Shown here: in pieces, positions 10,553-64,000 of the stretch
How positions within the stretch are numbered: the stretch's first letter is position 1
How the letters are laid out: each line of letters begins with the position of its first letter
Assembly (NCBI RefSeq): GCF_037975245.1
Contig: NC_092574.1
Coordinates: 7,000,713 to 7,064,712 of the forward strand
Reading direction: 5' to 3'
DNA from: Apostichopus japonicus
Taxonomy: Eukaryota > Echinodermata > Holothuroidea > Aspidochirotida > Stichopodidae
DNA length: 64,000 bases
Made by a program: the position numbers and the translations under genes
Notes under the pieces: model-generated
Database searches by the model: none
Seen by the model: the letters and a program-made list of their open reading frames with translations, nothing else
Told to the model about the DNA's origin: nothing

Positions 10553-17845
<7,293 letters not shown>

Positions 17846-22513: not shown

Positions 22514-22587
22514 CTAGGACTTGTTCAAGCTCAGCAATGAATCAGTCAGGGCATCAGCACTGTAAGTCCATTCAGTTTCGGTGGTGT
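22514..22587 (-). CDS. Terminal exon of the HYR/EGF gene
   Basis: Acceptor TTTTCAG and then 74 bp ending in TAG. It encodes [18 protein letters not shown] and then SLNKS. The tail is acidic and short, with no membrane anchor or GPI-type hydrophobic end. Confidence 0.7.
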
Positions 22588-46500: not shown

Positions 46501-49500
46501 AATTTCAACTCATGCACCAAGGAAAGAAGATTGTTTTCATGTCCATCTAAGCTTGTATTATTTTGGAAAAGATGACAACTATCATTAGCAACAATAGATT
46601 TTAGAATACATTTAGAAAAGTAAACAAGTAGAATATATCGGTAGCCTATTATGAAGGCTGAAATTTGGATTTGGCAAGATCTGATGGAATATTACTTGGC
46701 ATTTGTTGGCAATGACAGAAAGTCAGAGCGTAACCTGCTAATTCCACACACACAAAAATTGTAACAGAGATGATGTAGTTAAGGAAAGTCTTAAAATGTA
46801 ATGTAAAAGTATTTTACATAAAGTTTTGTAGGACCAAACTTGTTTGGGATTTGACAGAACTGTCAATTTGACAAAATGTTTCTAACCACACCGGTCTCCA
46901 GTCTGAAATCATATAATACATAAATATGTTCTTCATCAGATTTTTCCAAAGTTACAACTCTTTAAGTTAGAGATAGAGAGAGAGAGAGAGCAGTCATTAT
47001 GGTTGTGTGGGACATTATACAAACCTGTGTTAACTGTGACTGTGAATGAACAAGTTGCAGTCAGAGGTACTGCATTGCTGAATATGTAAGTGACAGTTGT
47101 ATCACCGAGAGGGAAATAAAAGCCACTGTAAAACTGAGGATCGTTAGAAACAAACACAGAACCAGAAGTATCCTCTGCTACCGGAGTTGGGAAGCTGACG
47201 ACACCACCCGACTCTCCTGTCAGTACTGTCACCGCTTGATCTGGAGGACAGAACACTATGGTGGGAGGTCCACCTGCAAAGAAGGAACGTGAAACCAATT
47301 GGAACACTGAAGATTGAAGAGCAAACTTCTATCAATCACTATATCTGGCAATAACCAATATCATGAATCAGCCAATGAGCTAATCTATCAATCATGGAGC
47401 AATCATTTCAACCTAACAGACATTTCTTACCAGCAATTCAAATCCATCAATGAATTAAATATATTGTAAAGAAAAACCTGACAAATTTGACCAATAAGTC
47501 TATCTATATCAATCCCTTTAATTCAATTATTGAGTTTGTGATGAGTATAGATAGACTTTGTTGGTATTACGACTTTTGATTACTACATGAATAATACACA
47601 GTGCTAGTTTCATAATGGAGAACTTACACGATAGGTACTCATTTAAAATTACCTACCATCTACCAACATGGCTGGTCTCATTAACACTATAGAAATCAAC
47701 TGCTTCCTACACCTTTGATGCTAATTCTGAATTAGATCTTGAAATGATTTTGATGAGTAAAAACTACTTCAGGAATTAAAATTTTGCAATAATTAGTCAA
47801 TAAAGTCATTGCGATACACAATATCGTTTTTAATGTTTTCCTTGTAATTCTGAAGCTATGATTTGTAGAGTTTCCATACTACCATAACTGAGGCTGAAGG
47901 TGAAATCTACCATACATAATTATACTTAACCTTCAGTTGATGAGAAACCATCCTGTTATACAACATTATAAGCTTTAAAATAATTCCTTTTCTTTTCATT
48001 TGTAAACAAGCACGATGGTATTGAGAAATTAGGTCTACTTTAGCAAAGTTTCTTAATTGTCTATTTGTGATATTTACAATATACTATCAGTATTGCCATT
48101 TTCCATTTATATCACTAAATGGTGAACAATGGTTCATCAGAACCTTTTACAGTTTCAACAGAGCGTTCTAATTTCATTCTCCATTTGCCATGACTATCCC
48201 TTCTCATTAGTTACTAAAATGTCAACAAAAGTTAATAACCAAGTGATAGTAGCCCACATATAGGCCTACACAAAATAAAAATGATCTTGCATGGCCTCTC
48301 AGTTACTGATTAACGCTAAACTTTACCAAACATAGAAAAATAAGAGCATCTCTGTAACTTCCCCCTTTCATTTTCTTTACAAAACAATTTGTGCCCATTT
48401 TGCAACTTAATTTGGGAGTGCAGTGAAACAACAAGTCTAACGTTCACTAAAAGCTGTAATAATAGCTAAATTGGTAGACAGATCCAATACAAGATTTCTC
48501 TTGTGAGAAATTTGGCAAGTGTCCAAGGTAACTGTCAGTCAGTCCTACGTACATGAAGCATCTGGGAAATCCTTTTGACATACAAGATGTAAAACGTATA
48601 TCACATATTCAAGCCTAAAAACAAAAATTGTGGTATCAAGACTAAACTTCTACTTAATGTCATCCATCAGGAGGTACCAATTGTTTACCCTCATCCATTT
48701 CAATGTATTATCCCATGAATTATCATGTAACACCCACTGTACAAAGACAATATATATACAACAAATTGAGGGTACAAACGTTCCTTTTAATATAGCCACA
48801 CAATCTTGTCATGTCAATATGATGCCAACCTAATTTACAAAGATCAATCCTCTCAGACTAAAAGCTTAATACTGGTTTTTACCAGGAGGGTTTGATTTCA
48901 CCTCAAAGTGGGAAAACCTCAAAATTCTTTGACTATATTTAATTGCAAATTACACATATAAGTCATTGCCGACATGCATGTAAACAAACTTCCTTAAATG
49001 ATTAGAAAATAGAGTATTATAATTACTTTACTACCTACTATTAACTACCTAAAAAATTTGGACCTCTGTTGACTCTGACATTTGACCTCCACCAACTGCA
49101 ATAGCATTATTGTAATCTATAAGGTGCAAGCTACATACCACATATTACGACCATCCACCCCATACATATTGGGTTATTGTGTTTCTAAGACATAGCTTCC
49201 TCACAATAACAACTCCGCACAGTACTACACACACACACTATCATCATCGCATAGATTCCCTTTGCCTTTTTGACAAGGAATCAATATCCCAAGCAACAAA
49301 CACTGGAACCAATTAACATACATTAATTAAAGTAATATGTTTAGGAAAGTACAACATGGAAATAAAATCAAGGTACCATGCTTTGACTATGAAAAAACTC
49401 AAATTCAACGTGTTTCTGAAGAAAGGGTCATTTTGTTGTACAAAGTATGGCACACTATGGGAGCAAATACTTAATATCATTCACGTGAACTGTGAATGTG

Positions 49501-52500
49501 CAAGATTGTGACAACTCTTAAAACTGCCGCTCTTGAAACCTTTCCATCTTATATGAATTGAATGCAAAATAAATTGGATATTTGGATTTTCTCTTTTTAA
49601 ATTTATCTATCTGTTTTTTGGGGGGGGGGGGGGAGTTTCTTTATTTGCTTATTTGAAATGAAACTGAAGCCAAATTGATTTACACCTTTATCAGATTCCA
49701 GGATCAATTCATCATGATAAATCAGTTAATAATAGCTTTGATAATGCTATGTGTTTAAGAGATGGCTCCTCTAACGTGCAACAAGAAACAGACAAAATAT
49801 CATCCAATTATTAGTGAAAAAGTCTAAATGAGTTTTGCTTACTTTAGGCAAACTTTTAGAGAAGGTTGTTAATTAATCTGTGATGCTGGTTGTACTACAT
49901 GATCAAGTCATATTAACTTAAGACCATCGCGCACTGCCCGACTGATCGCTACCCAACTCAACCAGATTGTCTTCGTGTGGGAAATCGTGGATAGTCTGGC
50001 AGTGCGGACAAGACTACAACTAATCAAGAGTAGTGAGGGAAGTTTACTCATAAAGCCTCAATTAGTACTCTAGAATTAATTAGAAGATTGTGCTTCCGTT
50101 TCAATGCAGAGATCTGGATAAACAAGATATAAGAACAAATGAAATTTATAATTGGATTAAACCCCAAAAGGTTACATAGTGTGTAATCATGTGACCAATT
50201 ATATGTTCCTGAATGTCCTCAACTAATTCCCTTGACTAAACAAGGCAAAATGAAAATCGATGAGGTTATATATCACGCAACTCTTGTATATCCTTACCGA
50301 CGAACACACTGAAGGTACAGACATCTGATAAGCCAAGATTATCTGAGAATGAGCATGTAACAGTAGTAGTTCAGCATTCTTATGAATGCAGGATTCTGTG
50401 TCTGGGACCCAATGTTTTAGCCAGGGACTCAAAATCTTCAAATTGCTTGGATCTGGCGGACACAAACTTTGTATTACATAACAAACTCAAAGTACACACA
50501 CTCAACACTAGGCCTATGCAAAACATATAAAAAAAATTTTTTGAATGAACATCTTTCTTTCTTCTTTTCAAACTATCCACAACTTCTGAAAAGAACAAAA
50601 ACTTCTTCCAATCCTACCGATGATTGAATTTGTTTGAAAAAAAATAAATCATAACGATTAAGCGCAATGTACAGTGTTAACAATTTCCATTACTAAGACT
50701 TTCATGCTAAAATATAGTCAATGATGCTTGTCCAAATTTCCAGTGATTTGATTGGCTAATAGTCCCTTATTCAATGTCTGCAGACATTCTTGCATCTGTA
50801 GTGATCCATGAACATAAAGTATGCAACTACACGAACTGTATTTATTCTTACCTAAACACACACTGAAGGTACAGAAATCTGATAAGCCAAGATTATCTGA
50901 GCAAAAGCATACAACAGTAGTACAGGGAGTTCCTGGTGGGAAAGAGCTTCCAGCTGGAGGGTTGCAATTGACTGCTAGAGTACCTTGTTCAGCATCATTA
51001 CAAGTAGGGGATGTTGTGAAACTGTTAACAGTGCCAACTGGACAACCAGAAAGCATAGGTGCAGTGTTTGCTGTTGCTGAATGAACCAAAGAAAACCACA
51101 ACTTGAAGAAATATAAAATATATGAGATCATTTGATTTTAGAAGTAGAAAGCAGTTTATTTTCTGAATTCAATTGTTTTTATTTAGAGTATTAATTTGAA
51201 ATTCATGCATAAAGGCCTAAATTAGTATTCTAGATTTAATTATAAGTAGTGCTTTTGCTTCAACATTGAGAATCTGGATAAAAGTTTAAGAAGAAATGAC
51301 ATATATAACTGGATATAACTCCAAAATAAAAATAAAATAAAACTGTTAGCAAACTGCTTATCCACTAGAGAGCCTGTGTAATAGAATGTGTAAAAGTAAG
51401 TTGGCCTGACGTTTCGATCCTTGTAGGATCATCTTTTCAGAGGCTAAATGACAAGTAAAAGTACAGTAACAGAAGGGACAAAAACATGCACAGAATACAG
51501 ACAGGTCAATGAGCACGGTGAACACAATGAGATGGGTGAAAGGGGATTATAAGTGGACAAGGCATGGAGAGAAGAACGCTTCAGGGGAAGAGGAGAGGTA
51601 GGAGATAAACAGTGGAGGGACAAAGTGAGGATTAAACGAACAGGGTAGGGAATAAACTGGAGAGGGACAAAGACAGCAATGTGTGGAAAAAAAAGGAGGG
51701 GAAGAGAGCTATGAAAAGGTGAGTGAAGGGGGGGGGGGGAAACAAAGGGAGAAGGAGTGGGACACAGAAGAAAAGTTAGTCATGTCCTTCCTGAATGTTC
51801 AGCCCATGAGGTTGAATGGTGCGAAGGCATTGCATCCACAGCCTCTCTCTGCTGATTCGTACTAGGTCAGGACGGCTACCTAAGGATTCAATCCCCTGTA
51901 GGGACATGTCGTTAATGGTATGGTTGGGAAGGTTAAAATGTTCTCCAACTGGGGTCTCCAACTGGATATAACTCCAAAAGTTACATAGTGCGTCAACAAG
52001 GTGCAATGCTGCCTAAAGTCCTCAAATATTTCATTTGACTAAATTACAGAAAACAAACAAAGACAAAATGAAATTCAATGAGATTATATGTCATGCAAGT
52101 CTTGTGTTTATTCTTACCTAAAAACACACTGAAGGTACAGAAATCTGATAAGCCAAGATTATCTGAGCATGAGCATGTAACAGTAGTAGTTCCTGATTGG
52201 AATGTTGTTCCAGCTGGAGGGTTGCAATTGACTGCTAGATTACCTTGTTCAGCATCATTACAAGTAGGGGATGTTGTGAAACTGTTGACAGTGCCAACTG
52301 GACAACCAGAAAGCATAGGTGCAGTGTTTGCTGGTTCTGAATGTACCAAAGAAAACCACAACTTGAAGAAATATAAAATATATAAGATTATTTGATTTTA
52401 AAAAGTAGAAAGCAGTCTTAGTTTCTGAATTCCACTGTTGTGTTTTTAGAGTATTCATTTGAAATTCATGCATAAAGGCCTAAATTAGTGTTCTAGATTT

Positions 52501-55500
52501 AGTTATAAGAAGTGCTTTTGTTTGAACAAATGATGGATAAAAGTACAAGAAGAAATGACATTTAAAACTGGATATAACTCCAAACAATACATAGTGTGTC
52601 ACCAATGACCTATGTTGCCTAATGTTCTCATCTATTTCCCTTGGCTCTACAGAAAATAAAATAAAATGAAATTCAATGAGGTTACTGTATATGTCACACA
52701 AGTCTTGTATTTATTCTTACCTACACACACAATGAAAGAACAGACATCTGATAGGCCAAGATTATCTGAGCAAAAGCATACAACAGTAGTACAGGGAGTT
52801 CCCGGTGGGAAAGAGCTTCCAGCTGGAGGGTTGCAAGTGACTTGTAGATTACCTTGTTCAGCATCATTACAAGTAGGGGATGTTGTGAAACTGTTAACAG
52901 TGCCAACTGGACAACCAGAAAGCATAGGTGCAGTGTTTGCTGTTGCTGAATGAACCAAAGAAAACCACAACTTGAAGAAATATAAAATATATGAGATCAT
53001 TTGATTTTAGAAGTAGAAAGCAGTTTATTTTCTGAATTCCATTTTTTATTTAGAGTATTAATTTGAAATTCATGCATAAAGGCCTAAATTAGTGTTCTAG
53101 ATTTAATTATAAGTAGTGCTTTTGCTACAACATTGAGAATCTGGATAAAACTATAAGAAGAAATGACATATATAATGGATATAACTCCAAAAGTTACATA
53201 GTGCGTCAACAAGGTGCTGCTTAAAGTCCTCAAATATTTCATTTGACTAAATTACAGAAAACAAAAGGAGACAAAACGAAATTCAATGAGATTATATGTC
53301 ACACAAGTCTTGTATTTATTCTTACCTACAAACACACTGAAGGTACAGCCATCTGATAAGCCAAGATTATCGGAGCATGAGCATGTAACAGTAGTAGTTC
53401 CTGATTGGAATGTTGTTCCAGCTGGAGGGTTGCAATTGACTGCTAGAGTACCTTGTTCAGCATCATTACAAGTAGGGGATGTTGTGAAACTGTTGACAGT
53501 GCCAACTGGACAACCAGAAAGCATAGGTGCAGTGTTTGCTGGTTCTGAATGTACCAAAGAAAACCACAACTTGAAGAAATATAAAATATATGAGATTATT
53601 TGATTTTAAAAAGTAGAAAGCAGTCTTAGTTTCTGAATTCCACTGTTGTGTTTTTAGAGTTATCATTTGAAATTCATGCATAAAGGCCTAAATTAGTGTT
53701 CTAGATTTAGTTATAAGAAGTGCTTTTGTTTGAACAAATGATGGATAAAAGTACAAGAAGAAATGACATTTAAAACTGGATATAACTCCAAAAAATACAT
53801 AGTGTGTCACCAAAGACCTATGTTGCCTAATGTCCTCATCTATTTCCCTTGGCTCTACAGAAAATAAAATAATAGAAATTCAATGAGGTTACTGTATATG
53901 TCACACAAGTCTTGTATTTATTCTTACCTACACACACACTGAAGGAACAGACATCTGATAGGCCAAGATTATCTGAGCAAAAGCATACAACAGTAGTACA
54001 GGGAGTTCCTGCTGGGAAAGAGCTTCCAGCTGGAGGGTTGCAATTGACTGCTAGAGTACCTTGTTCAGCATCATTACAAGTAGGGGTTGTTGTGAAACTG
54101 TTGACAGTGCCAACTGGACAACCAGAAAGCATAGGTGCAGTGTTTGCTGTTGCTGAATGAACCAAAGAAAACCACAACTTGAAGAAATATAAAATATATG
54201 AGATCATTTGATTTTAGTAGTAGAAAGCAGTTGTACTTTCTGAATTCCACTGTTGTTTTTTTAGAGTATTAATTTGAAATTCATGTATAAAGGCCTAAAT
54301 TAATGTTCTAGATTTAATTATAAGTAGTGCTCTTGCTTCAACATTGAGAATCTGGATAAAAGTATAAGAAGAAATGACATTGATAACTTGCATATAACTC
54401 CAAAAGTTACATAGTGCATCTACAAGGTGCAATGCTGCCTAAAGTCCTCAACGATTTTATTTGACTAAATTACAGAAAACAAAAAAAGACAAAATGATAT
54501 TCAATGAGATTATGTCATGCAAGTCTTGTGTTTATTCTTACCTACAAATACACTGAAGGTACAGACATCTGATAAGCCAAGATTATCTGAGCATGAGCAT
54601 GTAACAGTAGTAGTTCCTGATTGGAATGTTGTTCCAGCTGAAGGGTTGCAATTGACTGCTAGATTACCTTGTTCAGCATCATTACAAGTAGGGGATGTTG
54701 TGAAACTGTTGACAGTGTCAACTGGACAACCAGAAAGTATAGGTGCAGTGTTTGCTGTTGCTGAATGAACCAAAGAAAACCACAACTTGAAGAAATATAA
54801 AATATATGAGATTATTTAATTTTAAAAAGTAGAAAGCAGTTTATTTTCTGAATTCAATTGTTTTTTTTTAGAGTATTAATTTGCCATCATGCATAAAGAC
54901 CTAAAGTAGTATTCTAGATTTAATTATAAGTAGTGCTCTTGCTTCAATATTGAGAATCTGGATAAAAGTATAAGAAGAAATGACATAAATAACTGGATAT
55001 AACTCCAAAATAAAAATAAAAATAAAACTGTTAGCAAACTGCTTATCCACTAGAGAGCCTGTGTAATAGAATGTATAAAAGTAAGTTGGCCTGACGTTTC
55101 GATCCTAGCAGGATCTTCTTCAGAGGCTAAATGACAAGGAACAGTACAGTAACAGAAGGGACAAAAACATGCACAGAATACAGACAGGATAATTAGCACG
55201 GTGAACACAATGAGATGGGTGAAAGGGGATTATAAGTGGACAAGGCATGGAGAGAAGAAAGCTTCAGGGGAAGAGGAGAGGTAGGAGATAAACAGTGGAG
55301 GGACAAAGAGAGGATTAAAGGAACAGGGTAGGGAATAAACTGGAGAGGGACAAAGACAGCAAGGTGTGGAGAAAAAAAAAGGAGGGGAAGAGAGCTATGA
55401 GAAGGTGAGTGAAGGGGGGGGGGAGGAAACAAAGGGAGAAGGGGTGGGACACAGAGGAAAAGTTAGTCATGTCCTTCCTGAATGTTCAGCCCATGAGGTT

Positions 55501-58500
55501 GAATGGTGCGAAGGCGTTTCATCCACAGCCTCTCTCTGCTGATTCGTACTAGGTCAGGACGGCAACCTAAGGATTCATTCCCCTGTAGGGACATGTCGTT
55601 AATGGTATGGTTGGGAAGGTTAAAATGTTCTCCAACTGGGGTCTCCAACTGGATATAACTCCAAAAGTTACATAGTGCGTCAACAAGGTGCAATGCTGTC
55701 TAAAGTCCTCAAATATTTCATTTGACTAAATTACAGAAAACAAACAAAGACAAAATGAAATTCAATGAGATATGTCACGCAAGTCTTGTATTTATTCTTA
55801 CCTACAAACACACTGAAGGTACAGTCATCTGATAAGCCAAGATTATCTGAGCAAAAGCATGTAACAGTAGTAGTTCCTGATTGGAATGTTGTTCCAGCTG
55901 GAGGGTTGCAATTGACTGCTAGATTACCTTGTTCAGCATCATTACAAGTAGGGGATGTTGTGAAACTGTTGACAGTGCCAACTGGACAACCAGAAAGCAT
56001 AGGTGCAGTGTTTGCTGGTGCTGAATGAACCAAAGAAAACCACAACTTGAAGAAATATAAAATATATGAGATTATTTGATTTTAAAAAGTAGAAATCAGT
56101 CTTAGTTTCTGAATTCCACTGTTGTGTTTTTAGAGTACTCATTTGAAATTCATGCATAAAGGCCTAAATTAGTGTTCTAGATTTAGTTATAAGAAGTGCT
56201 TTTGTTTGAACATTGAGAATCTGGATAAAAGTACAAGAAGAAATGACATTTAAAACTGGATATAACTCCAAACAATACATAGTGTGTCACCAAAGACCTA
56301 TGTTGCCTAATGTCCTCATCTATTTCCCATGGCTCTACAGAAAATAAAATAAAATGAAATTCAATGAGGTTACTGTATATGTCACACAAGTCTTGTATTT
56401 ATTCTTACCTACACACACACTGAAGGTACAGACATCTGATAAGCCAAGATTATCTGAGCAAAAGCATACAACAGTAGTACAGGGAGTTCCTGCTGGGAAA
56501 GTGCTTCCAGCTGGAGGGTTGCAAGAGACTTGTAGATTACCTTGTTCAGCATCATTACAAGTAGGGGATGTTGTGAAACTGTTAACAGTGCCAACTGGAC
56601 AACCAGAAAGCATAGGTGCAGTGTTTGCTGGTGCTGAATGAACCAAAGAAAACCACAACTTGAAGAAGTACAAAATATACAAGATTATTTAATTTAGTAG
56701 TAGAAAGCAATTTTATTTTCTGAAATCCACTGTAGTATTTTTAGAGTATTAATTTGAAATTCATGCATAAAGACTGAAAGTAGTATTCTAGATTTAATTA
56801 TAAGTAGTGCTCTTGCTTCAACATTGAGAATCTGGATAAAAGTATAAGAAGAAATGACATTTATAACTGGATATATCTCCATAAGTTACATAGTGCATCA
56901 ACAAGGTGCAATGCTGTCTAAAGTCCTCAAATATTTCATTTGACTAAATTACAGAAAACAAACAAAGACAAAATGAAATTCAATGAGATATGTCACGCAA
57001 GTCTTGTATTTATTCTTACCTACAAACACACTGAAGGTACAGTCATCTGATGAGCCAAGATTATCTGAGCATGAGCATGTAACAGTAGTAGTTCCTGATT
57101 GGAATGTTGTTCCAGCTGGAGGGTTGCAATTGACTGCTAGAGTACCTTGTTCAGCATCATTACAAGTAGGGGATGTTGTGAAACTGTTGACAGTGCCAAC
57201 TGGACAACCAGAAAGCATAGGTGCAGTGTTTGATGATTCTGAATGTACCAAAGAAAACCACAACTTGAAGAAATATAAAATATATGAGATTATTTGATTT
57301 TAAAAAGTAGAAATCAGTCTTAGTTTCTGAATTCCATTGTTGTGTTTTTAGAGTACTCATTTGAAATTCATGCATAAAGGCCTAAATTAGTGTTCTAGAT
57401 TTAGTTATAAGAAGTGCTTTTGTTTGAACATTGAGAATCTGGATAAAAGTACAAGAAGAAATGACATTTGAAACTGGATATAATTCCAAACGTTACATAG
57501 TGTTTCACCAATGACCTATGTTGCCTAATGTCCTCAACTATTTCCCATGGCTCTACAGAAAATAAAATAAAATGAAATTCAATGAGGTTATATGTCACAC
57601 AAGTCTTGTATTTATTCTTACCTACACACACACTGAAGGTACAGACATCTGATAAGCCAAGATTATCTGAGCAAAAGCATACAACAGTAGTACAGGGAGT
57701 TCCTGCTGGGAAAGTGCTTCCAGCTGGAGGGTTGCAAGAGACTTGTAGATTACCTTGTTCAGCATCATTACAAGTAGGGGATGTTGTGAAACTGTTAACA
57801 GTGCCAACTGGACAACCAGAAAGTATAGGTGCAGTGTTTGCTGTTGCTGAATGAACCAAAGAAAACCACAACTTGAAGAAATATAAAATATATGAGATCA
57901 TTTGATTTTAGAAGTAGAAAGCAGTTTATTTTCTGAATTCAATTGTTTTTTTAGAGTATTGATTTGAAATTCATGCATAAAGACCTAAAGTAGTATTCTA
58001 GGTTAAATTATATGTAGTGCTCTTGCTTCAACATTGAGAATCTGGATAAAAGTATAAGAAGAAATGACATTTATAACTGGATATAACTCCAAAAGTTACA
58101 TAGTGCATCAACAAGGTGCAATGCTGCCTAAAGTCCTCAAATATTTCATTTGACTAAATTACAGAAAAAAAAGAAGACAAAATGAAATTCAATGAGATTA
58201 CATGTCATGCAAGTCTTGTATTTATTCTTACCTACAAACACACTGAAGGTACAGAAATCTGATGAGCCAAGATTATCTGAGCATGAGCATGTAACAGTAG
58301 TAGTTCCTGATTGGAATGTTGTTCCAGCTGGAGGGTTGCAATTGACTGCTAGATTACCTTGTTCAGCATCATTACAAGTAGGGGATGTTGTGAAACTATT
58401 GACAGTGCCAACTGGACAACCAGAAAGCATAGGTGCAGTGTTTACTGGTTCTGAATGTACCAAAGAAAACCACAACTTGAAGAAATATAAAATGTATGAG

Positions 58501-61500
58501 ATTATTTGATTTAAAAAAAGTAGAAAGCAGTCTAAGTTTCTGAATTCCACTGTTGTATTTAGTTTAGTTTAGTAGAAAAAAGGATCAGGAGGGACACTTA
58601 AGTCCCCATCAAGGACCCTATAAAGAGAGGGAAAAAAACTGAAGACACAAACACTCAGACCCGATTACAATGCTTAAAGTGCTTGTCCAAAGCATTCTTA
58701 AACCCATTGACACTACTTGCAAGTACAACTTTCTCAGGCAAACTATTCCACTCATTCACAACCCTATTAGAAAAAAAGTTATGCCGAATATTAATCCTAC
58801 TATGCGACTTTTGAAGTTTAAGACAATGACCTCTAGTACAACTACTGTTTGCAAACATGAAAAAGTCGGTAAAGGATAAATTGTCGAAACCATACACAAT
58901 CTTGAAAACCTGGATCAAGTCCCCACGTAACCTCCTAAGCTCCAGTGTGGTGAGATTCAACAGTTGTAACCGCCTATAATAAGGAACCCTCTTTAAGGAA
59001 CTAATCATCCTAGTAGCCCTCCTCTGGACCCTTTCAAGTACTTCCTTATCCTTAGCAAAATAAGGGTTCCAAGCCTGCACAGCATACTCCAGATGAGGCC
59101 TAACCAACTGCTTATAAAGCCTAACTACGATGTCCTCTTTCAGAAAACTGAAGTTCCTCTTGATCATACCTAAAACCCTATTACCTCTTTTAGCAGCTTC
59201 AAGACAATGTTTGGAAGGTTGCAGAGACGAGTCAATGTAGATACCTAGGTCTCTTTCAACAGAGACCTCCTGTAACTCCACACCATTTAGATTGTATGTA
59301 AACTTTTGGTTACTACTACCAATGTGCATTACCTTACATTTATCAATATTAAAAAGCATTTGCCACCCCTGAGACCAGGAAAAAATCTTATCTAAATCCG
59401 CTTGAAATTTCTCAGAATCGCTTTTGGAAGAGACCTCAGAATACAATTTGGTGTCATCAGCAAACTTCTTAGCTGTACACAAAATATCTCCGTCGATGTC
59501 ATTTATATAGGCAACAAACAACAGGGGACCTAATACAGACCCTTGTGGAACCCCACTAGTAACGTTCTGCCAAGAAGAAGCACAGCCATTAATTACCACC
59601 CTCTGTTCCCTATTACCAAGCCAATTCCCGATCCAAGACAGTAAATTCCCTTTGACACCCATGCTCTTCAGCCTAAGTAAAAGACGCTGGTGGGGAACTT
59701 TATCAAAGGCCTTCTGGAAATCCAGGAACACAACATCTACAGACCTCTGCCTATTTAGTGAGCTTGTTACATCTTCCATAAACTCAAGGATATTAGTGAG
59801 ACAAGACCTTTTTTGACAAAAGCCATGCTGAGACTCTCTGATCAAAGACTGACTGCTGAAGTGACAGACCAAAGACTTTTTAACAATAGACTCCATGACC
59901 TTACAAACTACACTAGTGAGACTAACGGGCCTATAATTACAGGGCTTAGTCTTATCACCCTTCTTGAAAATTGGGGTAATATTAGCACATCTCCAGTCCC
60001 TGGGAACATAACCTTCATCCATAAATTTACTAAAAATCAACGAGAGTGGAACGCAGAAATAGTGTGCAAAAGTCTTCAACAAATACGGATGGATTGCATC
60101 CGGTCCAGAAGCTTTAGAAACATTTAGACGAAGCAGCTCCTTTAAGACAACGTCATCCGAAAATAAGACCGTATCCAGTTTAGGCCTATCACTGCCCCCC
60201 TGAAAATCTGGAATACTACTCGTATCTTCCCTTGTGAAAACCGACACAAAATAGTCGTTCAAAAGATCTGCAAGATCCTGACTATCAGTAACTATCTTAT
60301 CAGCCTGTGGTGCCCTAAGGGAAACAATTGCATCTTTAACTTTCTGCTTAGACCTGACATAAGAAAAGAAGGCCTTTGGGTTATCCTTAATTTTTAGGGC
60401 GATGCTTTTTTCGAAATTCAATTTTGCATCAGAGACTAAGCATTCTACTTTCAGCTGATGAATTTTAAACTTGGCCAAAAGAGATTCAGATTTAGTCCTC
60501 CTAAACAACTTCCACATTCTACGTTTTTGCCTAATTGCACATCTAACTTTCTTATTCATCCAGTGAGGCATACTGCTTTTACGACGACGATTCTTCCACG
60601 GAACATGATTTTCCATAATGACCTTTAATTTATCAGCAAAACAAATCCAAGACTGAGAAGCACTCATATCACTAAACAAATTAATCCAATCTGTACCCTT
60701 TAGTAAAGTTTCAATTGCCTCTGTATCTGATCTCGAAAAATCAGGTACTTTTTCCTTGCTAATAGAACTTACGACCTTACAAACAACATCAAAAGCTAGT
60801 ATATCATGATCACTAGTTCCTAGTTTTCCTAGACCGGTCAAATCAACAACATTGCTTGGATTAGAACTCAAAACAAGATCCAGGATGTTATCCCCCCTAG
60901 TAGGGAAAGTAACATGTTGATGTAAAAAGCAATCTTGCACAACATCTAGAAAATTACTACCTTTCCTACTACTAGAACCATCTATCCAATTAATGTCAGG
61001 AAAATTAAAGTCGCCCATTATAACAACATCACCTTTAGCAGCCTTTCTAATTGAATCAAACAGCACGACATCATTATCATCGCTGCTGTTAGGAGAGCGG
61101 TAAACAACACCTACAGTGATAACGTCCCTGGACCTCTTGGAGTTGTTTGTGGACAACTCGCACCAGACAGAATTAACAAAAGACCCTTGCAACTGAGATT
61201 TCTCAACACTTACAATGTCATCCCTAACATACAGTAAAACTCCCCCACCAACCCCATTATGAGTATCCCTTCTGTCCTGACGATACACAACATACCCCGG
61301 GTGAGAAACCTCAGCACTATCAATGTCCTCCCTTAACCAAGACTCGGTGATACCAAACACATCCGGTTTCAGATCCTCGAGAAGCACAGTAAATTCAGCA
61401 AAATTTTTACGAATACTTCTAGCATTGGTAAAGACAATCTTCAGCCTATCCCTGAAACTATGTACCTTAGCATGCCTCCTAAAGTTAGAACTATGACTAT

Positions 61501-63886
61501 CACTTATTTTGCTCTCAAAACGCCTATAATCGCCTCCACTAGGAACATAATCCTTATCCAAACTAATTCCTGACTTCATTTTTAGAGTACTCATTTGAAA
61601 TTCATGCATAAAGGCCTAAATTAGTGTTCTAGATTTAGTTATAAGAAGTACTTTTGTTTGAACATTGATAATCTGGATAAAAGTACAAGAAGAAATGACA
61701 TTTGAAACTGGATATAACTCCAAACGTTACATAGTGTTTCACCAATGACCTATGTTGCCTAATGTCCTCATCTATTTCCCATGGCTCTACAGAAAATAAA
61801 ATAAAATGATATTCAATGAGGTTATATGTCACACAAGTCTTGTATTTATTCTTACCTACACACACACTGAAGGAACAGACATCTGATAAGCCAAGATTAT
61901 CTGAGCAAAAGCATACAACAGTAGTACAGGGAGTTCCTGTTGGGAAAGTGCTTCCAGCTGGAGGGTTGCAAGAGACTTGTAGATTACCTTGTTCAGCATC
62001 ATTACAAGTAGGGGATGTTGTGAAACTGTTAACAGTGCCAACTGGACAACCAGAAAGCATAGGTGCAGTGTTTGCTGTTGCTGAATGAACCAAAGAAAAC
62101 CACAACTTGAAGAAATATAAAATATATGAGATCATTTGATTTTAGAAGTAGAAAGCAGTTTATTTTCTGAATTCAATTGTTTTTTTTTAGAGTATTAATT
62201 TGAAATTCATGTATAAAGACCTAAAGTAGTATTCTAGGTTTAATTATAAGCAGTGCTTTTGTTTCAACATTGAGAATCTGGATATAGGTATAAGAAGAAA
62301 TTACATTTATAACTGAAAATAACTCCTAAAGTTACATAGTGTGTATACCATGTGCAATGCTGCCTAAAGTCCTCAACAAATTCATTTGACTAAATTACAG
62401 AAAATAAAAGAACACGAAGAGAATTTTAATGAGATTATAAGTAATGCAAGTCTTGTATTTATTCTTACCCACAACACTGAAGGTACAGTCATCTGATAAG
62501 CCAAGATTATCTGAGCATGAGCATGTAACAGCAGTAGTTCCTGCTTGGAAAGTGCTTCCAGCTGGAGGGTTGCAATTGACTGCTAGAGTACCTTGTTCAG
62601 CATCATTACAAGTAGGGGATGTTGTGAAACTGTTGACAGTGCCAACTGGACAACCAGAAAGCATAGGTGCAGTGTTTGCTGAATGAACCAATGAAAACCA
62701 CAACTTGAAGAAATACAAAATATACAAGATTTTTTAATTTAGAAGTAGTGAGCAATTTTATTTTCTGAATTCCATAGTATTTTTAGAGTATTATTTTGGA
62801 ATTCATGCGTAAATGCCTAAATTAGTGTTCTAGATTTAATTATAAGCAGTGCTTTTGTTTCAACATTGAGAATCTGGATATAGGTAAAAGAAGAAATTAC
62901 ATTTATAACTGAAAATAATTCCTAAAGTTACATAGTGTGTATACCATGTGCAATGCTGCCTAAAGTCCTCAACAAATTCATTTGACTAAATTACAGAAAA
63001 TAAAAGAACACGAAGAGAATTTTAATGAGATTATAAGTAATGCAAGTCTTGTATTTATTCTTACCCACAACACTGAAGGTACAGACATCTAATAAGCCAA
63101 AATTATCTGAGCATGAGCATGTAACAGCAGTAGTTCCTGCTTGGAAAGTGCTTCCAGCTGGAGGGTTGCAATTGACTGCTAGAGGACCTTGTTCAGCATC
63201 ATTACAAGTAGGGGATGTTGTGAAACTGTTGACAGTGCCAACTGGACAACCAGAAAGCATAGGTGCAGTGTTTGCTGTTGCTGCATGAACCAAAGAAAAC
63301 AACAACTTGAAGAAATACAAAATATACAAGATTATTTAATTTAGTAGTAGAATTAAAGCAATTTTTTTCCCTGAATTCCGCTCTAGTATTTTTAGAGTAT
63401 TAATTTGAAATTCATGCATAAAGACCTTAAGTAGTCTTCTAGATTTAATTATAAGTAGTGCTCTTGCTTCAAAATTGCGAATCTGGATAAAAGTATAAGA
63501 AGAAATGACATTTATAACTGAATATAGCTCCAAAAGTTACATAGTGCGTATACCATGTGCAATGCTGCCATAAGTCCTCAACAAATTCATTTGACTCTAC
63601 AGAAAATAAAAGAACACGAAGAGAATTTTAATGAGATTATAAGTAATGCAAGTCTTGTATTTATTCTTACCCACAACACTGAAGGTACAGACATCTGATA
63701 AGCCAAAATTATCTGAGCAAAAGCATATAACAGTGGTTCCTCCTGCTTGGAAAGTGCTTCCAGCTGGAGGGTTACAATTGACTGCTAGAGTACCTTGTTC
63801 AGCATCAATACAAGTAGGGGATGTTGTGAAACTGTTGACAGTGCCAACTGGACAACCAGAAAGCATAGGTGCAGTGTTTGCTGTTG
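22514..63886 (-). CDS. Giant secreted HYR/EGF/CUB-like gene (5' partial)
   Basis: About 36 exons read right to left give about 2,290 residues; the 5' end lies beyond the window. The N-to-C order is 15 Cys-rich HYR, 1 canonical HYR, 9 EGF-like, 1 canonical HYR, 5 Cys-rich HYR, 1 EGF, a Cys-rich module, a CUB-like domain, a furin-type site and a short tail. HYR modules have an immunoglobulin-like fold and build extracellular matrix proteins such as sea urchin hyalin, so a secreted matrix, adhesion or recognition role is likely. Every internal exon is phase 1-1. No membrane segment is visible, and the signal peptide is not in the window. The Cys-rich HYR exons sit in ~605-bp tandem units. One transcription unit is inferred from strand, phase and order; two adjacent genes are possible, because the 47.3-50.3 kb gap has no exon. 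Confidence 0.75.
23293..23340 (-). CDS. Small exon with furin-type cleavage site
   Basis: 48 bp, phase 1-1, donor GTGAGT. It encodes [19 protein letters not shown] followed by Ser fits a proprotein convertase site, and NMT is a possible N-glycosylation site. The acceptor reads TAGAAG, a NAGNAG tandem site, so a 51-bp version starting at 23343 is equally in frame. Confidence 0.65.
24104..24442 (-). CDS. CUB-like domain exon
   Basis: 339 bp (113 residues), phase 1-1, acceptor CAAACAG, donor GTAAGC. The pattern PNTYPQG ... [17 protein letters not shown] ... [10 protein letters not shown] matches the strand order and spacing of a CUB domain (YP near the start, LWIRF and GF near the end). Two features of classic CUB domains are not seen: the four conserved Cys and a Ca-binding Asp pattern. 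I therefore call it CUB-like. Confidence 0.6.
25048..25263 (-). CDS. Cys-rich exon of unrecognised fold
   Basis: 216 bp, phase 1-1, acceptor CTCTTAG, donor GTAAGT. Eight Cys fall in AECPG, PVCPAG, SSCTQ, VCCTCS and QCCFA. I do not recognise the family. It lies between the last EGF and the CUB-like exon. Confidence 0.65.
25820..26000 (-). pseudogene. Degenerate partial copy of the canonical HYR exon
   Basis: Matches about 31149-31330 (the 3' half of the HYR exon at 31240-31491 plus its downstream intron). Similarity stops near 26000, so the 5' half of the exon and its acceptor are missing. The conserved Cys before SFV is changed to Phe, and the donor side reads CGATGTAATC instead of CCAGGTAATC. 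This looks like a dead exon in the intron between the Cys-rich module and an EGF exon. Confidence 0.75.
26104..26217 (-). CDS. EGF-like exon (6 Cys)
   Basis: 114 bp, phase 1-1. [15 protein letters not shown] and [14 protein letters not shown] give the standard six-Cys EGF pattern. No Ca-binding DxDE signature precedes the first Cys. It is the last EGF before the C-terminal modules. Confidence 0.9.
26218..27723 (-). other. Intron; nothing recognised
   Basis: 1.5 kb between the EGF exon and the C-terminal HYR cluster. No further exon, repeat or element could be supported. Confidence 0.5.
27724..27942 (-). CDS. Cys-rich HYR exon, C-terminal cluster copy 1
   Basis: 219 bp, 73 codons, phase 1-1, acceptor ATTCAG, donor GTAAGA. 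Starts [13 protein letters not shown] and ends with a CTFSVSV strand. Six Cys. The variable codon before CTFSV is ATC (Ile) at 27746-27748. Nearly identical to copy 2, including the intron. Confidence 0.88.
28332..28550 (-). CDS. Cys-rich HYR exon, C-terminal cluster copy 2
   Basis: 219 bp, 608 bp from copy 1. Differs from copy 1 chiefly at the variable codon, here TTC (Phe). Six Cys. Confidence 0.88.
28939..29157 (-). CDS. Cys-rich HYR exon, C-terminal cluster copy 3
   Basis: 219 bp, six Cys. Variable codon GTC (Val). It uses TCSCSD where copies 1 and 2 have TCFCSD, a trait shared with the A-type exons of the distant cluster. Confidence 0.88.
29544..29762 (-). CDS. Cys-rich HYR exon, C-terminal cluster copy 4
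   Basis: 219 bp, six Cys. Variable codon ATC (Ile). It has [17 protein letters not shown] and a PVDTV variant of the usual PVGTV. The upstream intron contains a short (TA)n run. Confidence 0.88.
30147..30365 (-). CDS. Cys-rich HYR exon, C-terminal cluster copy 5
   Basis: 219 bp, six Cys. Variable codon GAC (Asp). It has [17 protein letters not shown]. It is the first of the cluster in transcript order; the unit's intron similarity stops at about 30475. Confidence 0.88.
30738..30768 (+). repeat. Short (TTGAT)n tandem repeat
   Basis: Four TTGAT units followed by TTATTTGATTTTCC. This type of pentamer run often marks the 3' end of a non-LTR element, but no body is recognisable here. Confidence 0.6.
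31048..31119 (-). repeat. Short tandem repeat (about 13 bp) in an intron
   Basis: Repeats of CAGCTAAAAATT with slight variation, between the two HYR exon types. Confidence 0.8.
31240..31491 (-). CDS. Canonical HYR exon (2 Cys)
   Basis: 252 bp (84 residues), phase 1-1, acceptor TTCCAG, donor GTAATC. It has [42 protein letters not shown] and VITV: the usual HYR length and two-Cys pattern. A degenerate partial copy lies 5.4 kb downstream. Confidence 0.9.
31492..34216 (-). other. Intron with a MITE; no exon recognised
   Basis: 2.7 kb between the canonical HYR exon and the next EGF exon. It holds MITE copy 2 (32064-32430); I see nothing else to call. Confidence 0.5.
32064..32430. mobile_element. 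hAT-type MITE, copy 2
   Basis: 367 bp, highly similar to the element at 6378-6751 and in the same orientation. Target-site duplication TTTAAAGG at 32056-32063 and 32431-32438. The two unrelated 8-bp duplications fix the element ends independently. Confidence 0.85.
34217..34336 (-). CDS. EGF-like exon (6 Cys)
   Basis: 120 bp, phase 1-1, acceptor TTTACAG, donor [21 protein letters not shown] and [16 protein letters not shown] give a standard EGF. Confidence 0.9.
35211..35363 (-). CDS. EGF-like exon (7 Cys)
   Basis: 153 bp, phase 1-1, acceptor CGCCAG, donor [22 protein letters not shown], then an inserted NTYCSATDD and [13 protein letters not shown]. The Cys in NTYC is extra to the EGF pattern and has no partner inside the module. 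Confidence 0.87.
36541..36705 (-). CDS. EGF-like exon (6 Cys, long loop)
   Basis: 165 bp, phase 1-1, acceptor TTACAG, donor [20 protein letters not shown], then an Asn/Ser-rich loop between Cys3 and Cys4, then [14 protein letters not shown]. The loop makes it the longest EGF in the window. Confidence 0.88.
37457..37560. repeat. Solo unit of the 100-bp minisatellite
   Basis: One unit (GGTCATACTCACCCTGCC ... GGATATGCTCCTCTTTCCCA) matching the array at 38023-38925 but separated from it by an EGF exon. Confidence 0.85.
37650..37784 (-). CDS. EGF-like exon (7 Cys)
   Basis: 135 bp, phase 1-1, acceptor TTTCAG, donor [21 protein letters not shown] and [16 protein letters not shown]. The double Cys in DGCC gives an odd total. 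It lies between the solo minisatellite unit and the main array. Confidence 0.87.
37890..38041 (+). repeat. Minisatellite variant, left arm of a 152-bp inverted pair
   Basis: This segment reappears on the opposite strand at 41210-41361, with one mismatch that I can see (GAGTAACTCT versus GAGTATCTCT). It includes the variant CCATTGCTAGAACTCTCC that the array units lack. Confidence 0.85.
38023..38925. repeat. 100-bp minisatellite array, about 9 units
   Basis: Units of exactly 100 bp, with GTCATACTCACCCTGC recurring every 100 bp from 38031 to 38831. Each unit holds several CAGAGTAT-like words. The units are close to identical. A degenerate continuation runs to about 39780. Confidence 0.95.
39786..40845. 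repeat. 34-bp minisatellite array, about 31 units
   Basis: Units of 34 bp built on CTACTGATAATACTCTCC plus CATGCTGGCAGTATCCT, with variants GATCATACTC and GAGAGTAT. Variant units read ATACTCTC-CATGCT-GAGAGTAT, a perfect 8-bp hairpin stem. It shares CATACTC and AGTAT words with the 100-bp array, so both probably derive from one ancestral repeat. There are no unique spacers. Confidence 0.93.
41210..41361 (-). repeat. Minisatellite variant, right arm of a 152-bp inverted pair
   Basis: Reverse-complement copy of 37890-38041, about 3.2 kb away, just beyond the 34-bp array. It is the only piece of the 100-bp family seen in inverted orientation. Confidence 0.85.
41494..41619 (-). CDS. EGF-like exon (7 Cys)
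   Basis: 126 bp, phase 1-1, acceptor ATCTAG, donor [38 protein letters not shown]. It has the extra Cys between Cys3 and Cys4 seen in the 8-Cys neighbours but lacks the second extra Cys. Confidence 0.88.
41822..41944 (-). CDS. EGF-like exon (8 Cys)
   Basis: 123 bp, phase 1-1, acceptor TTTCAG, donor [39 protein letters not shown]. The extra pair is the Cys in AESC and the one in CTGC. Confidence 0.9.
43529..43651 (-). CDS. EGF-like exon (8 Cys)
   Basis: 123 bp, phase 1-1, acceptor TATCAG, donor [39 protein letters not shown]. Same 8-Cys layout as the exons at 41822-41944 and 45097-45222. Confidence 0.9.
44163..44300 (-). CDS. Possible Cys-rich exon (doubtful)
   Basis: 138 bp bounded by TCATAG and GTAAGG, in phase 1-1 and open. 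It would encode [21 protein letters not shown] and VQCPTPALC. It is much more GC-rich than its surroundings and built partly of repeated CCTGCGCTGCCC-like words. A second frame is also open, so it could be a GC-rich repeat that fits the phase by chance. No family recognised. Confidence 0.3.
45097..45222 (-). CDS. EGF-like exon (8 Cys)
   Basis: 126 bp, phase 1-1, acceptor TTTCAG, donor [38 protein letters not shown], with both extra cysteines present. Confidence 0.9.
45714..45827 (-). CDS. EGF-like exon (7 Cys)
   Basis: 114 bp, phase 1-1, acceptor TGTAG, donor [34 protein letters not shown]. It carries the CxxC extra Cys but not its partner between Cys3 and Cys4, the mirror image of the exon at 41494-41619. 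Confidence 0.88.
45828..47024 (-). other. Intron; nothing recognised
   Basis: 1.2 kb between the canonical HYR exon and the first EGF exon. An (AG)n run lies at about 46973-46991. Confidence 0.5.
47025..47273 (-). CDS. Canonical HYR exon (2 Cys)
   Basis: 249 bp (83 residues), phase 1-1, acceptor TTTGCAG, donor GTTTGT. It has [44 protein letters not shown] and ATCSFTVTV: a textbook HYR layout. It joins the N-terminal HYR cluster to the EGF block. Confidence 0.92.
47274..50297 (-). other. 3-kb gap without recognised exons
   Basis: AT-rich sequence with a G-run at 49620-49634. No HYR, EGF or other exon could be supported. It is the widest exon-free stretch that no repeat complex explains, so a gene boundary here is possible. 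Confidence 0.45.
50298..50371 (-). pseudogene. Truncated Cys-rich HYR exon
   Basis: Only the last 74 bp of an HYR exon remain, with an intact donor (GTAAGG). Similarity stops at 50371, where the dispersed repeat begins. In the remaining part the second Cys of TCSCSD is changed to Phe (TCSFSD), and the variable codon is GTC. It has no acceptor, so it is probably not spliced in. Confidence 0.8.
50372..50613. repeat. Dispersed repeat, copy 2
   Basis: Matches 2907-3118. Its left edge coincides with the break in the HYR exon at 50371, so the repeat replaced or displaced the 5' two-thirds of that exon. Confidence 0.65.
50852..51076 (-). CDS. HYR exon, N-terminal cluster, type B (7 Cys)
   Basis: 225 bp, 75 codons, phase 1-1, donor GTAAGA. 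It has [18 protein letters not shown], where the TPC insertion gives the seventh Cys. Variable codon TTC (Phe). The intron upstream of it in transcript order carries Penelope-like insert 1. It is the last intact exon of the cluster. Confidence 0.88.
51327..51959 (-). mobile_element. Penelope-like element fragment, copy 1
   Basis: 633 bp flanked by a 20-bp direct repeat (51307-51326 and 51960-51979) of the host intron. On the minus strand it encodes [28 protein letters not shown] and [10 protein letters not shown], the C-terminal part of the GIY-YIG endonuclease of Penelope-like elements. A purine-rich tract and a hammerhead-like motif at 51403-51443 follow. The motif core here is disrupted (CTGAAAAGATGATCC). 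Confidence 0.75.
52118..52336 (-). CDS. HYR exon, N-terminal cluster, type A (6 Cys)
   Basis: 219 bp, phase 1-1. It has [17 protein letters not shown]; variable codon TTC (Phe). The first residues are EPANTAP. The intron downstream of it contains Penelope-like insert 1. Confidence 0.88.
52721..52945 (-). CDS. HYR exon, N-terminal cluster, type B (7 Cys)
   Basis: 225 bp, phase 1-1. It has [20 protein letters not shown] and ends VCSFIV rather than VCTFSV. Variable codon GTC (Val). Confidence 0.88.
   Translation of the reverse strand, partial: QQQTLHLCFLVVQLALLTVSQHPLLVMMLNKVIYKSLATLQLEALSHRELPVLLLYAFAQIILAYQMSVLSLCV
53326..53544 (-). CDS. HYR exon, N-terminal cluster, type A (6 Cys)
   Basis: 219 bp, phase 1-1. 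Variable codon GGC (Gly), the only Gly among the copies. Starts EPANTAP. Confidence 0.88.
53928..54152 (-). CDS. HYR exon, N-terminal cluster, type B (7 Cys)
   Basis: 225 bp, phase 1-1. It has FTTTPTCND where the others have FTTSPTCND, and SSFPAGTPC. Variable codon GTC (Val). Confidence 0.88.
54542..54760 (-). CDS. HYR exon, N-terminal cluster, type A (6 Cys)
   Basis: 219 bp, phase 1-1. It has [11 protein letters not shown] and a Pro-to-Ser change in CNPSAG. Variable codon GTC (Val). It is followed in window order by another A exon, the one break in the A/B alternation. Confidence 0.88.
55011..55646 (-). mobile_element. Penelope-like element fragment, copy 2
   Basis: 636 bp with the same junctions and flanking 20-bp repeat (54991-55010 and 55647-55666) as copy 1, so it is the same insertion duplicated with its host block. 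It encodes the same GIY-YIG C-terminal segment. Its hammerhead-like motif at 55088-55127 keeps an intact core on the minus strand. Confidence 0.75.
55088..55127 (-). ncRNA. Hammerhead-ribozyme-like motif in the Penelope fragment
   Basis: On the minus strand it reads GCCT, CTGAAGA, then a stem II hairpin GATCC-TGCTA-GGATC, then GAAA, CGTC and AGGC. GCCT can pair with AGGC as stem I, and the CUGANGA and GAAA core elements are present. Minimal hammerheads with almost no stem III are known from Penelope-like elements. Activity is not shown by sequence. Confidence 0.55.
55802..56020 (-). CDS. HYR exon, N-terminal cluster, type A (6 Cys)
   Basis: 219 bp, phase 1-1. Variable codon GAC (Asp). Starts APANTAP; has TCFCSD. 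Its position is equivalent to 52118-52336 in the 3.69-kb block. Confidence 0.88.
56409..56633 (-). CDS. HYR exon, N-terminal cluster, type B (7 Cys)
   Basis: 225 bp, phase 1-1. It has [20 protein letters not shown]; variable codon GTC (Val). Equivalent to 52721-52945. Confidence 0.88.
   Translation of the reverse strand, partial: HQQTLHLCFLVVQLALLTVSQHPLLVMMLNKVIYKSLATLQLEALSQQELPVLLLYAFAQIILAYQMSVPSVCV
57020..57238 (-). CDS. HYR exon, N-terminal cluster, type A (6 Cys)
   Basis: 219 bp, phase 1-1. Starts ESSNTAP; has GSSDDC, where Leu before Ser is changed and the variable codon is GAC (Asp). Equivalent to 53326-53544, which has Gly there. Confidence 0.88.
57622..57846 (-). CDS. HYR exon, N-terminal cluster, type B (7 Cys)
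   Basis: 225 bp, phase 1-1. It has PILSGCP and [20 protein letters not shown]; variable codon GTC (Val). Equivalent to 53928-54152. Confidence 0.88.
   Translation of the reverse strand, partial: QQQTLHLYFLVVQLALLTVSQHPLLVMMLNKVIYKSLATLQLEALSQQELPVLLLYAFAQIILAYQMSVPSVCV
58232..58450 (-). CDS. HYR exon, N-terminal cluster, type A (6 Cys)
   Basis: 219 bp, phase 1-1. Starts EPVNTAP; has GSSDFC, variable codon TTC (Phe). The intron on its 5' side carries the CR1 element. Equivalent to 54542-54760. Confidence 0.88.
58561..61577 (-). mobile_element. CR1/Jockey-type non-LTR retrotransposon, probably 5'-truncated
   Basis: A 3.0-kb insertion into an HYR intron; the interrupted intron resumes at 61578 with a flanking ATTT on both sides. 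It has a 3' UTR of about 90 bp and a short (CTAAA)n-like 3' tail at 58561-58573. It is not present at the equivalent place of any other unit, so it postdates the block duplication. The body carries one long intact frame, described separately. Confidence 0.88.
58655..61579 (-). CDS. Endonuclease/reverse transcriptase of the CR1-like element
   Basis: 974 codons open from the ATG at 61579 to TGA at 58655, with no stop or frameshift. Order by residue in the extended frame that starts 10 residues upstream in the host intron: an AP-type endonuclease at about 55-280 ([23 protein letters not shown]); a linker; reverse transcriptase at about 500-760 ([52 protein letters not shown]); and a C-terminal segment ending [17 protein letters not shown] is the catalytic pair. 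There is no RNase H. The ATG is formed at the insertion junction, two bases from the host and one from the element, so the native start is probably lost. Clade placement (CR1/Jockey) is from motif style, not a tree. Confidence 0.88.
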   Translation of the reverse strand: MKSGISLDKDYVPSGGDYRRFESKISDSHSSNFRRHAKVHSFRDRLKIVFTNARSIRKNFAEFTVLLEDLKPDVFGITESWLREDIDSAEVSHPGYVVYRQDRRDTHNGVGGGVLLYVRDDIVSVEKSQLQGSFVNSVWCELSTNNSKRSRDVITVGVVYRSPNSSDDNDVVLFDSIRKAAKGDVVIMGDFNFPDINWIDGSSSRKGSNFLDVVQDCFLHQHVTFPTRGDNILDLVLSSNPSNVVDLTGLGKLGTSDHDILAFDVVCKVVSSISKEKVPDFSRSDTEAIETLLKGTDWINLFSDMSASQSWICFADKLKVIMENHVPWKNRRRKSSMPHWMNKKVRCAIRQKRRMWKLFRRTKSESLLAKFKIHQLKVECLVSDAKLNFEKSIALKIKDNPKAFFSYVRSKQKVKDAIVSLRAPQADKIVTDSQDLADLLNDYFVSVFTREDTSSIPDFQGGSDRPKLDTVLFSDDVVLKELLRLNVSKASGPDAIHPYLLKTFAHYFCVPLSLIFSKFMDEGYVPRDWRCANITPIFKKGDKTKPCNYRPVSLTSVVCKVMESIVKKSLVCHFSSQSLIRESQHGFCQKRSCLTNILEFMEDVTSSLNRQRSVDVVFLDFQKAFDKVPHQRLLLRLKSMGVKGNLLSWIGNWLGNREQRVVINGCASSWQNVTSGVPQGSVLGPLLFVAYINDIDGDILCTAKKFADDTKLYSEVSSKSDSEKFQADLDKIFSWSQGWQMLFNIDKCKVMHIGSSNQKFTYNLNGVELQEVSVERDLGIYIDSSLQPSKHCLEAAKRGNRVLGMIKRNFSFLKEDIVVRLYKQLVRPHLEYAVQAWNPYFAKDKEVLERVQRRATRMISSLKRVPYYRRLQLLNLTTLELRRLRGDLIQVFKIVYGFDNLSFTDFFMFANSSCTRGHCLKLQKSHSRINIRHNFFSNRVVNEWNSLPEKVVLASSVNGFKNALDKHFKHCNRV
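61856..62080 (-). CDS. HYR exon, N-terminal cluster, type B (7 Cys)
   Basis: 225 bp, phase 1-1. It has STFPTGTPC; variable codon GTC (Val). It is separated from the next A exon by the CR1 insertion. Confidence 0.88.
   Translation of the reverse strand, partial: QQQTLHLCFLVVQLALLTVSQHPLLVMMLNKVIYKSLATLQLEALSQQELPVLLLYAFAQIILAYQMSVPSVCV
62469..62678 (-). CDS. HYR exon, N-terminal cluster, type C (6 Cys, short)
   Basis: 210 bp, 70 codons, phase 1-1. Lacks two codons at the start (begins ANTAP) and one at the end (CTFSVV). It has [17 protein letters not shown]; variable codon GAC (Asp). Confidence 0.87.
63065..63280 (-). CDS. HYR exon, N-terminal cluster, type C (6 Cys)
   Basis: 216 bp, phase 1-1, acceptor TGCAG. 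It has AEQGPLAV where the others have AEQGTLAV or AEQGNLAV, and GLLDVC with a Ser-to-Leu change; variable codon GTC (Val). Confidence 0.87.
63671..63886 (-). CDS. HYR exon, N-terminal cluster, type C (6 Cys)
   Basis: 216 bp, phase 1-1. It has [10 protein letters not shown] where the others have CNDAEQG, and [17 protein letters not shown]; variable codon GTC (Val). The intron beyond it (63887-64000) matches the unit consensus, so the array continues past the window. Confidence 0.87.
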
Positions 63887-64000
63887 CTGAATGAACAAAA
63901 GAAAACCACAACTTGAAGAAATATAAAATATATGAGATTATTTGATTTCAAAAAGTAGCAAGCAGTCTTAGTTTCTGAATTCCACAATTGTATTTTTAGA

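Follow-up and report, generated by a model that had tools for sequence, protein, structure and literature searches.

A bounded tandem array of phase 1-1 HYR exons in a deduced gene for a probably secreted Reeler/HYR/EGF mosaic protein of Apostichopus japonicus

Exon structure of the HYR array

The stretch of Apostichopus japonicus DNA considered here (the window; 64,000 nucleotides, C14:7000713-7064712) belongs to an assembly of 671,581,487 bases in 35 contigs and carries, at 50,852-63,886 on the minus strand, an array of 15 exons for the HYR domain, which takes its name from hyalin. A previous sequence-only reading had placed 15 near-identical exons of symmetric phase here, and all 15 are present on the minus strand in exon-plus-intron units of ~605 bp. 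The exons are 210-225 nt long, and in each of the 15 the length is a multiple of 3 and the frame is free of stops; an acceptor AG and the donor GTAAGA border every one (15/15), with two bases ahead of the first full codon and one after the last, which confirms the predicted phase 1-1 symmetry throughout (15/15). Unit spacing is 598-613 bp at 11 of 14 steps; the other three spacings are 3,630, 1,260 and 1,260 bp because the introns hold inserts. Mean identity is 93.3% among the exons (88-99%) and 88.5% among the introns (81-98%); the description of near-identical ~605-bp units stands. In gene order the exons are as follows (8-Cys, type A; 6-Cys, type B; a third type has six cysteines and a shorter tail):

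63671-63886, minus strand: U1, first in gene order within the window, third type (6-Cys, shorter tail)
Between U1 and U3, minus strand: U2, third type (6-Cys, shorter tail)
62,469-62,678, minus strand: U3, third type (6-Cys, shorter tail)
61856-62080, minus strand: U4, 8-Cys (A) type
58232-58450, minus strand: U5, 6-Cys (B) type
57622-57846, minus strand: U6, 8-Cys (A) type
57020-57238, minus strand: U7, 6-Cys (B) type
56409-56633, minus strand: U8, 8-Cys (A) type
55802-56020, minus strand: U9, 6-Cys (B) type
54542-54760, minus strand: U10, 6-Cys (B) type
53928-54152, minus strand: U11, 8-Cys (A) type
53326-53544, minus strand: U12, 6-Cys (B) type
52721-52945, minus strand: U13, 8-Cys (A) type
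52118-52336, minus strand: U14, 6-Cys (B) type
50852-51076, minus strand: U15, last in gene order, 8-Cys (A) type

A query that pairs an exon of the 8-Cys type with one of the 6-Cys type matches the Pfam HYR family PF02494 at 45.7 bits (cut-off 21.7); the remaining array exons match the array profile, which was built from these exons, at E 4e-43 or better. That 16 copies of a single domain are open and look spliced, the sixteenth lying just beyond the window, excludes a chance repeat.

Array ends, higher-order repeat and inserts

The features that bound, repeat or interrupt the array are:

50,305-50,370, minus strand: truncated copy of an HYR exon, bounding the array on its 3' side and reduced to the domain end
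27,724-30,365, minus strand: second block of five HYR exons (D1-D5), same type, phase 1-1, all 6-Cys
58560-61578, minus strand: LINE-type retrotransposon insert of 3.0 kb in intron U4/U5
55010-55646, minus strand: 637-bp insert in intron U9/U10, flanked by a 20-bp direct repeat
51326-51959, minus strand: second copy of the 637-bp insert in intron U14/U15, 95.8% identical

The array was expected to run on past the window, and it does so by one exon: copy U0 lies at about 64,260-64,472 (profile match 64,267-64,467), and the array profile finds no other copy in 60 kb upstream at E <= 0.01, which rules out an array extending far beyond the window. The start of U0 consists of bases unlike those of the other copies, array homology beginning at codon 7; at the opposite end, unit homology around the truncated copy at 50,305 runs on to 50049. 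The foreign start of U0 and the end-only copy fit exchange points inside the exon. Together with the D block, the window holds 20 array-type exons, all of them 210-225 nt long, open, phase 1-1 and with intact splice motifs (20/20).

The 8-Cys type comprises U4, 6, 8, 11, 13 and 15, the 6-Cys type U5, 7, 9, 10, 12 and 14, and the third 6-Cys type U1-U3. The two extra cysteines of the 8-Cys type occur together in 6/6 copies and in 0/14 others; the types diverge chiefly at codons 43-57, with 23.9% difference between types and 2.7% within. Identity is higher at lag 2 than at lag 1 both in exons (95.4%, 13 pairs, vs 92.1%, 14 pairs) and in introns (92.2%, 12 pairs, vs 87.7%, 13 pairs); the higher-order repeat that had been noticed before is thus real, and is a two-unit alternation of 8-Cys and 6-Cys exons. 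Exon identity is also high at lags 5, 7 and 9 (94.5, 95.1 and 95.3%), which is expected of an alternation with a shift by one at U9/U10.

The 637-bp insert has no Pfam match and is probably the tail of a retroelement; one of its frames closes with a stop codon, preceded by residues typical of the tail of Penelope-like or similar elements. The simplest reading of the paired copies is a single insertion followed by a five-unit duplication; conversion could have been an alternative route of spread. The LINE insert is entered by an open frame (61615-58658, 986 codons) that begins in the flanking intron and encodes reverse transcriptase (RVT_1, 120.1 bits) and endonuclease domains by Pfam.

Deduced gene and protein

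From the order and phases of the exons a gene can be deduced that would run from about 74.2 to 22.5 kb on the minus strand and would include all array exons. Its predicted product has the order signal peptide, Reeler, HYR-like, 16 HYR, HYR, nine EGF-like, HYR, five HYR, EGF, two exons without a Pfam family, and stop. A start codon with a likely signal peptide, judged by eye, lies at about 74.17 kb; two manually joined exons give 38.3 bits for the Reeler domain PF02014 (cut-off 21), and the C-terminal stop comes without an obvious membrane segment, also by eye. These features agree with the earlier suggestion of a secreted protein, and the product looks like a secreted matrix, adhesion or egg-coat protein. 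The further exons within the window are:

47025-47273, minus strand: single divergent HYR exon, Pfam HYR 50.4 bits
45714-45827, minus strand: EGF-like exon 1 of nine, above the Pfam EGF cut-off
45097-45222, minus strand: EGF-like exon 2, below the Pfam EGF cut-off
43529-43651, minus strand: EGF-like exon 3, below the Pfam EGF cut-off
41822-41944, minus strand: EGF-like exon 4, below the Pfam EGF cut-off
41494-41619, minus strand: EGF-like exon 5, below the cut-off, scanned solely joined to three others
37650-37784, minus strand: EGF-like exon 6, above the Pfam EGF cut-off
36541-36705, minus strand: EGF-like exon 7, above the Pfam EGF cut-off
35211-35363, minus strand: EGF-like exon 8, above the Pfam EGF cut-off
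34217-34336, minus strand: EGF-like exon 9, above the Pfam EGF cut-off
31240-31491, minus strand: single divergent HYR exon, Pfam HYR 57.7 bits
26104-26217, minus strand: EGF exon 3' of the D block, Pfam EGF 37.9 bits
25048-25263, minus strand: Cys-rich exon, phase 1-1, no Pfam match at E <= 0.1
24104-24442, minus strand: exon without cysteines, CUB-like by eye only, no Pfam match
22514-22587, minus strand: proposed last exon with the stop, matching phase

The introns of the deduced gene also hold two minisatellites, at 37906-39004 (100-bp unit x 11) and 39789-40830 (34-bp unit x 30.7). Two open frames, 25703-26035 (near 25.8 kb) and 31067-31256 (after the 31.2-kb HYR exon), are similar by eye and suggest an old duplication of an HYR exon end plus intron.

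Divergence among the copies

Among the 20 copies the ratio of nonsynonymous to synonymous differences (pN/pS) is 0.99 over all pairs, 1.18 within U1-U15 and 0.82 between the two blocks; within types it reaches 1.45 (8-Cys) and 1.55 (6-Cys). The synonymous divergence pS is unevenly placed, at 0.022 in codons 1-42, 0.139 in codons 43-74 and 0.122 in the introns; segregating sites number 4 of ~32 synonymous sites in codons 1-42, 11 of ~23 in codons 43-74 and 158 of 375 intron columns. Fisher comparison with the introns gives p 0.0006 for codons 1-42 and p 0.67 for codons 43-74, the copies being related and the p values a guide only. The near-frozen codons 1-42 are common to the U and D blocks, which lie 20 kb apart. 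Protein constraint alone would not explain frozen synonymous sites; conversion centred on the exon front, or constraint on the RNA, would freeze them. Codon 67 carries five amino acids and has changed eight times on the intron tree (18 units); as a signal of selection its hypervariability is weakened by 3 of 326 ungapped intron triplets that reach at least eight changes.

Other HYR arrays of the genome

A genome search with PF02494 yielded 1,534 candidates at first look. Scores were listed for 150 of them, each above the cut-off; contig C14 holds none of these 150. Six HYR regions on contigs C2 and C3 were compared. In five of them the main repeat units are 1,466, about 1,460, about 3,430, 4,608 and 3,628 bp long, with identities between units of about 98-99.96%; in the sixth (C3, 10.386 Mb) the HYR matches are diverse and the only repeat listed is a 96-bp minisatellite, which spans ~2.9 kb among the HYR exons (local ~6602-9527). 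A phase-1 acceptor motif stands at 74 of the 75 HYR matches in these regions, and a phase-1 donor motif near the domain end at at least 54 of the 75; the two 1.46-kb arrays show no such donor motif within the stretch inspected. The C2/C3 arrays resemble the window array in that HYR domains with phase-1 acceptor motifs are set out in tandem, and indicate that arrays with one exon per HYR domain recur in this genome; they differ in unit length (1.46, 3.4-3.6 and 4.6 kb, with one to six HYR matches each), in their identity of ~98-99.96% and in having canonical HYR domains without the 6-8 Cys pattern. The window array is thus small and comparatively old beside the other HYR arrays of this genome.

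Relation to known repeat-domain genes

The sequence-only reading knew of no described gene with such a layout; this claim is not supported, in view both of the further one-exon-per-HYR arrays of the same genome and of DMBT1 and LPA, repeat-domain genes of a kind to which the array belongs: it consists of tandem in-frame coding units with introns in what appears to be one gene. DMBT1 likewise has a tandem in-gene array of one-domain repeats, with 7-21 SRCR domains per allele and transcripts that mostly match the genomic number (PMC9038570); it differs in domain family and in that copy-number variation between alleles is shown there, the window array representing one assembly. The kringle IV type 2 (KIV-2) repeats of LPA are also tandem coding units with introns, 1-40 per allele (PMC11462820), however the unit measures 5.6 kb with two exons per domain, as against ~605 bp and one exon here.

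Among echinoderm proteins, hyalin of sea urchins is described as a matrix protein for cell adhesion that consists of HYR domains, and three such domains are given for a footprint protein of a sea star (PMC9382459); hyalin and EBR1 are also treated in PMC3528131. Hyalin is like the deduced protein in being extracellular and HYR-built; the two differ, by protein description only, in the Reeler and EGF domains that flank short 6-/8-Cys HYR copies here. EBR1, the sea urchin sperm receptor on the egg surface, is reported as species-specific and as containing multiple HYR repeats alongside CUB and TSP repeats (PMC8403831), and the related EBR1_5 is reported to have seven HYR domains, three of them with positively selected codons (PMC5521101), together with a transmembrane and an SEA domain; the multiple HYR repeats are shared with the deduced protein, however in the extracts consulted neither is described with Reeler or EGF domains. 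A literature search met no paper combining HYR domain, hyalin, tandem and exon, a weak negative since most subscription papers lie outside the search; hyalin and HYR are absent from the text of PMC10381214.

Origin and possible role of the array

The array is probably the repetitive part of a single gene that encodes a large, secreted Reeler/HYR/EGF mosaic protein, grown by unequal exchange and with a spacer or adhesive role. This explanation starts from the observed exon structure, repeat order, inserts and domain families, to which it would add splicing as drawn, secretion, adhesion and the mechanism of exchange. With one phase 1-1 exon per HYR domain, repeated unequal exchange of exon-plus-intron units would have enlarged the block, at first as alternating 8-Cys/6-Cys pairs and later through duplication of a five-unit segment already bearing the transposon insert. 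The resulting protein would string many β-sandwich domains together and act as a spacer or adhesive within the hyaline layer, the egg coat or a similar extracellular layer. Unequal exchange is supported because the insert is shared five units apart and the end copies break inside the exon; these segment-sized gains, with the tandem duplication itself, bear out the proposal of an architecture suited to unequal crossing over, and the structure gives good grounds for regarding the locus as a tandem array that evolves fast. Several points weigh against this explanation. The gene model is drawn from sequence with predicted splice junctions, the phases agree across the exons read except at the link from Reeler to the HYR-like exon at 67.3 kb, and that exon has no Pfam match; Pfam EGF PF00008 exceeds its cut-off in six of ten EGF-like exons, leaving four below it. 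The signal peptide and the lack of a membrane segment depend on judgement by eye, a pN/pS of ~1 between copies does not by itself show protein constraint, and the hyaline-layer setting is a guess.

The same exons could instead belong to an egg-surface recognition protein like EBR1, in which the HYR string binds gametes and both repeat number and the variable half of the domain are under selection. The species-specific HYR repeats of EBR1 (PMC8403831), the selected codons of EBR1_5 (PMC5521101) and the elevated within-type ratios and five amino acids at codon 67 speak for this; however those ratios are point estimates drawn from a small number of synonymous sites (~54), the eight changes at codon 67 are equalled in introns, and the deduced set of Reeler, HYR and EGF departs from the CUB, TSP and HYR of EBR1; HYR is present, no CUB or TSP family was found among the exons scanned (part of the gene), and one exon is CUB-like by eye. 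The proposal is considered unlikely. A slightly less likely idea treats each exon as a two-part cassette, with a near-frozen front (codons 1-42) kept uniform by conversion and a diversifying back that alternates between 8 and 6 cysteines; with variable copy number, this would make the array a germline generator of diversity in a recognition protein. It is distinctly improbable that variable splicing of the symmetric exons yields many isoforms as a recognition repertoire: skipping would preserve the frame, however extracellular domains spread by exon shuffling are usually phase 1-1, a symmetry that is silent on regulation, all 20 donors read GTAAGA with no exon standing out, and splicing is described as minor in DMBT1, where transcripts mostly follow genomic number (PMC9038570).

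Decay or disuse of the array, as a pseudogene section, would accommodate pN/pS near 1, the truncated end copy and the LINE insert, yet a stop or broken splice motif occurs in 0 of 20 array-type exons while the introns differ by 12% on average, and every length difference is a multiple of 3; this is very improbable. Assemblies are known to be prone to error at tandem repeats, and copy number or order could be wrong; an artefact is, however, the least probable case, as the introns differ by up to ~19% between units, three of them contain inserts, both ends are sharp and the contig measures 28 Mb, with no N in the stretch. Common long reads exceed the 14-kb length of the array.

The array set out above as a repeat section grown by unequal exchange is a fully bounded coding array with readable growth steps (the pair repeat, the insert-dated five-unit duplication and the broken ends). 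With the far more uniform HYR arrays of the same genome for comparison, it could be measured within a single animal how fast arrays turn over in extracellular proteins. Should copy number vary and the protein lie on the egg or body surface, the locus would serve to test how length polymorphism bears on adhesion or recognition.

Structure prediction and neighbouring features

AlphaFold2 modeling of the 20 window exons gave a mean pLDDT of 78.7 and a pTM of 0.58, the five models spreading from 39.7 to 78.7. A Foldseek search of the PDB with this model returned 486 matches, none of them at E <= 0.001 (best 0.011); Ig-like, Big_3 and PKD-like β-sandwiches are among the matches listed, all above that threshold. 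A sequence profile search of the PDB gave chance-level antibody matches only (best E 0.39). Elsewhere in the window, the open frame 4918-5328 has no Pfam match and resembles a glutaredoxin-domain cysteine-rich protein. Past the 3' end of the deduced gene lies a glutamine amidotransferase gene, marked by a GATase_6 exon at 16,818-17,327 on the minus strand (33.8 bits), which we take to be amidophosphoribosyltransferase.

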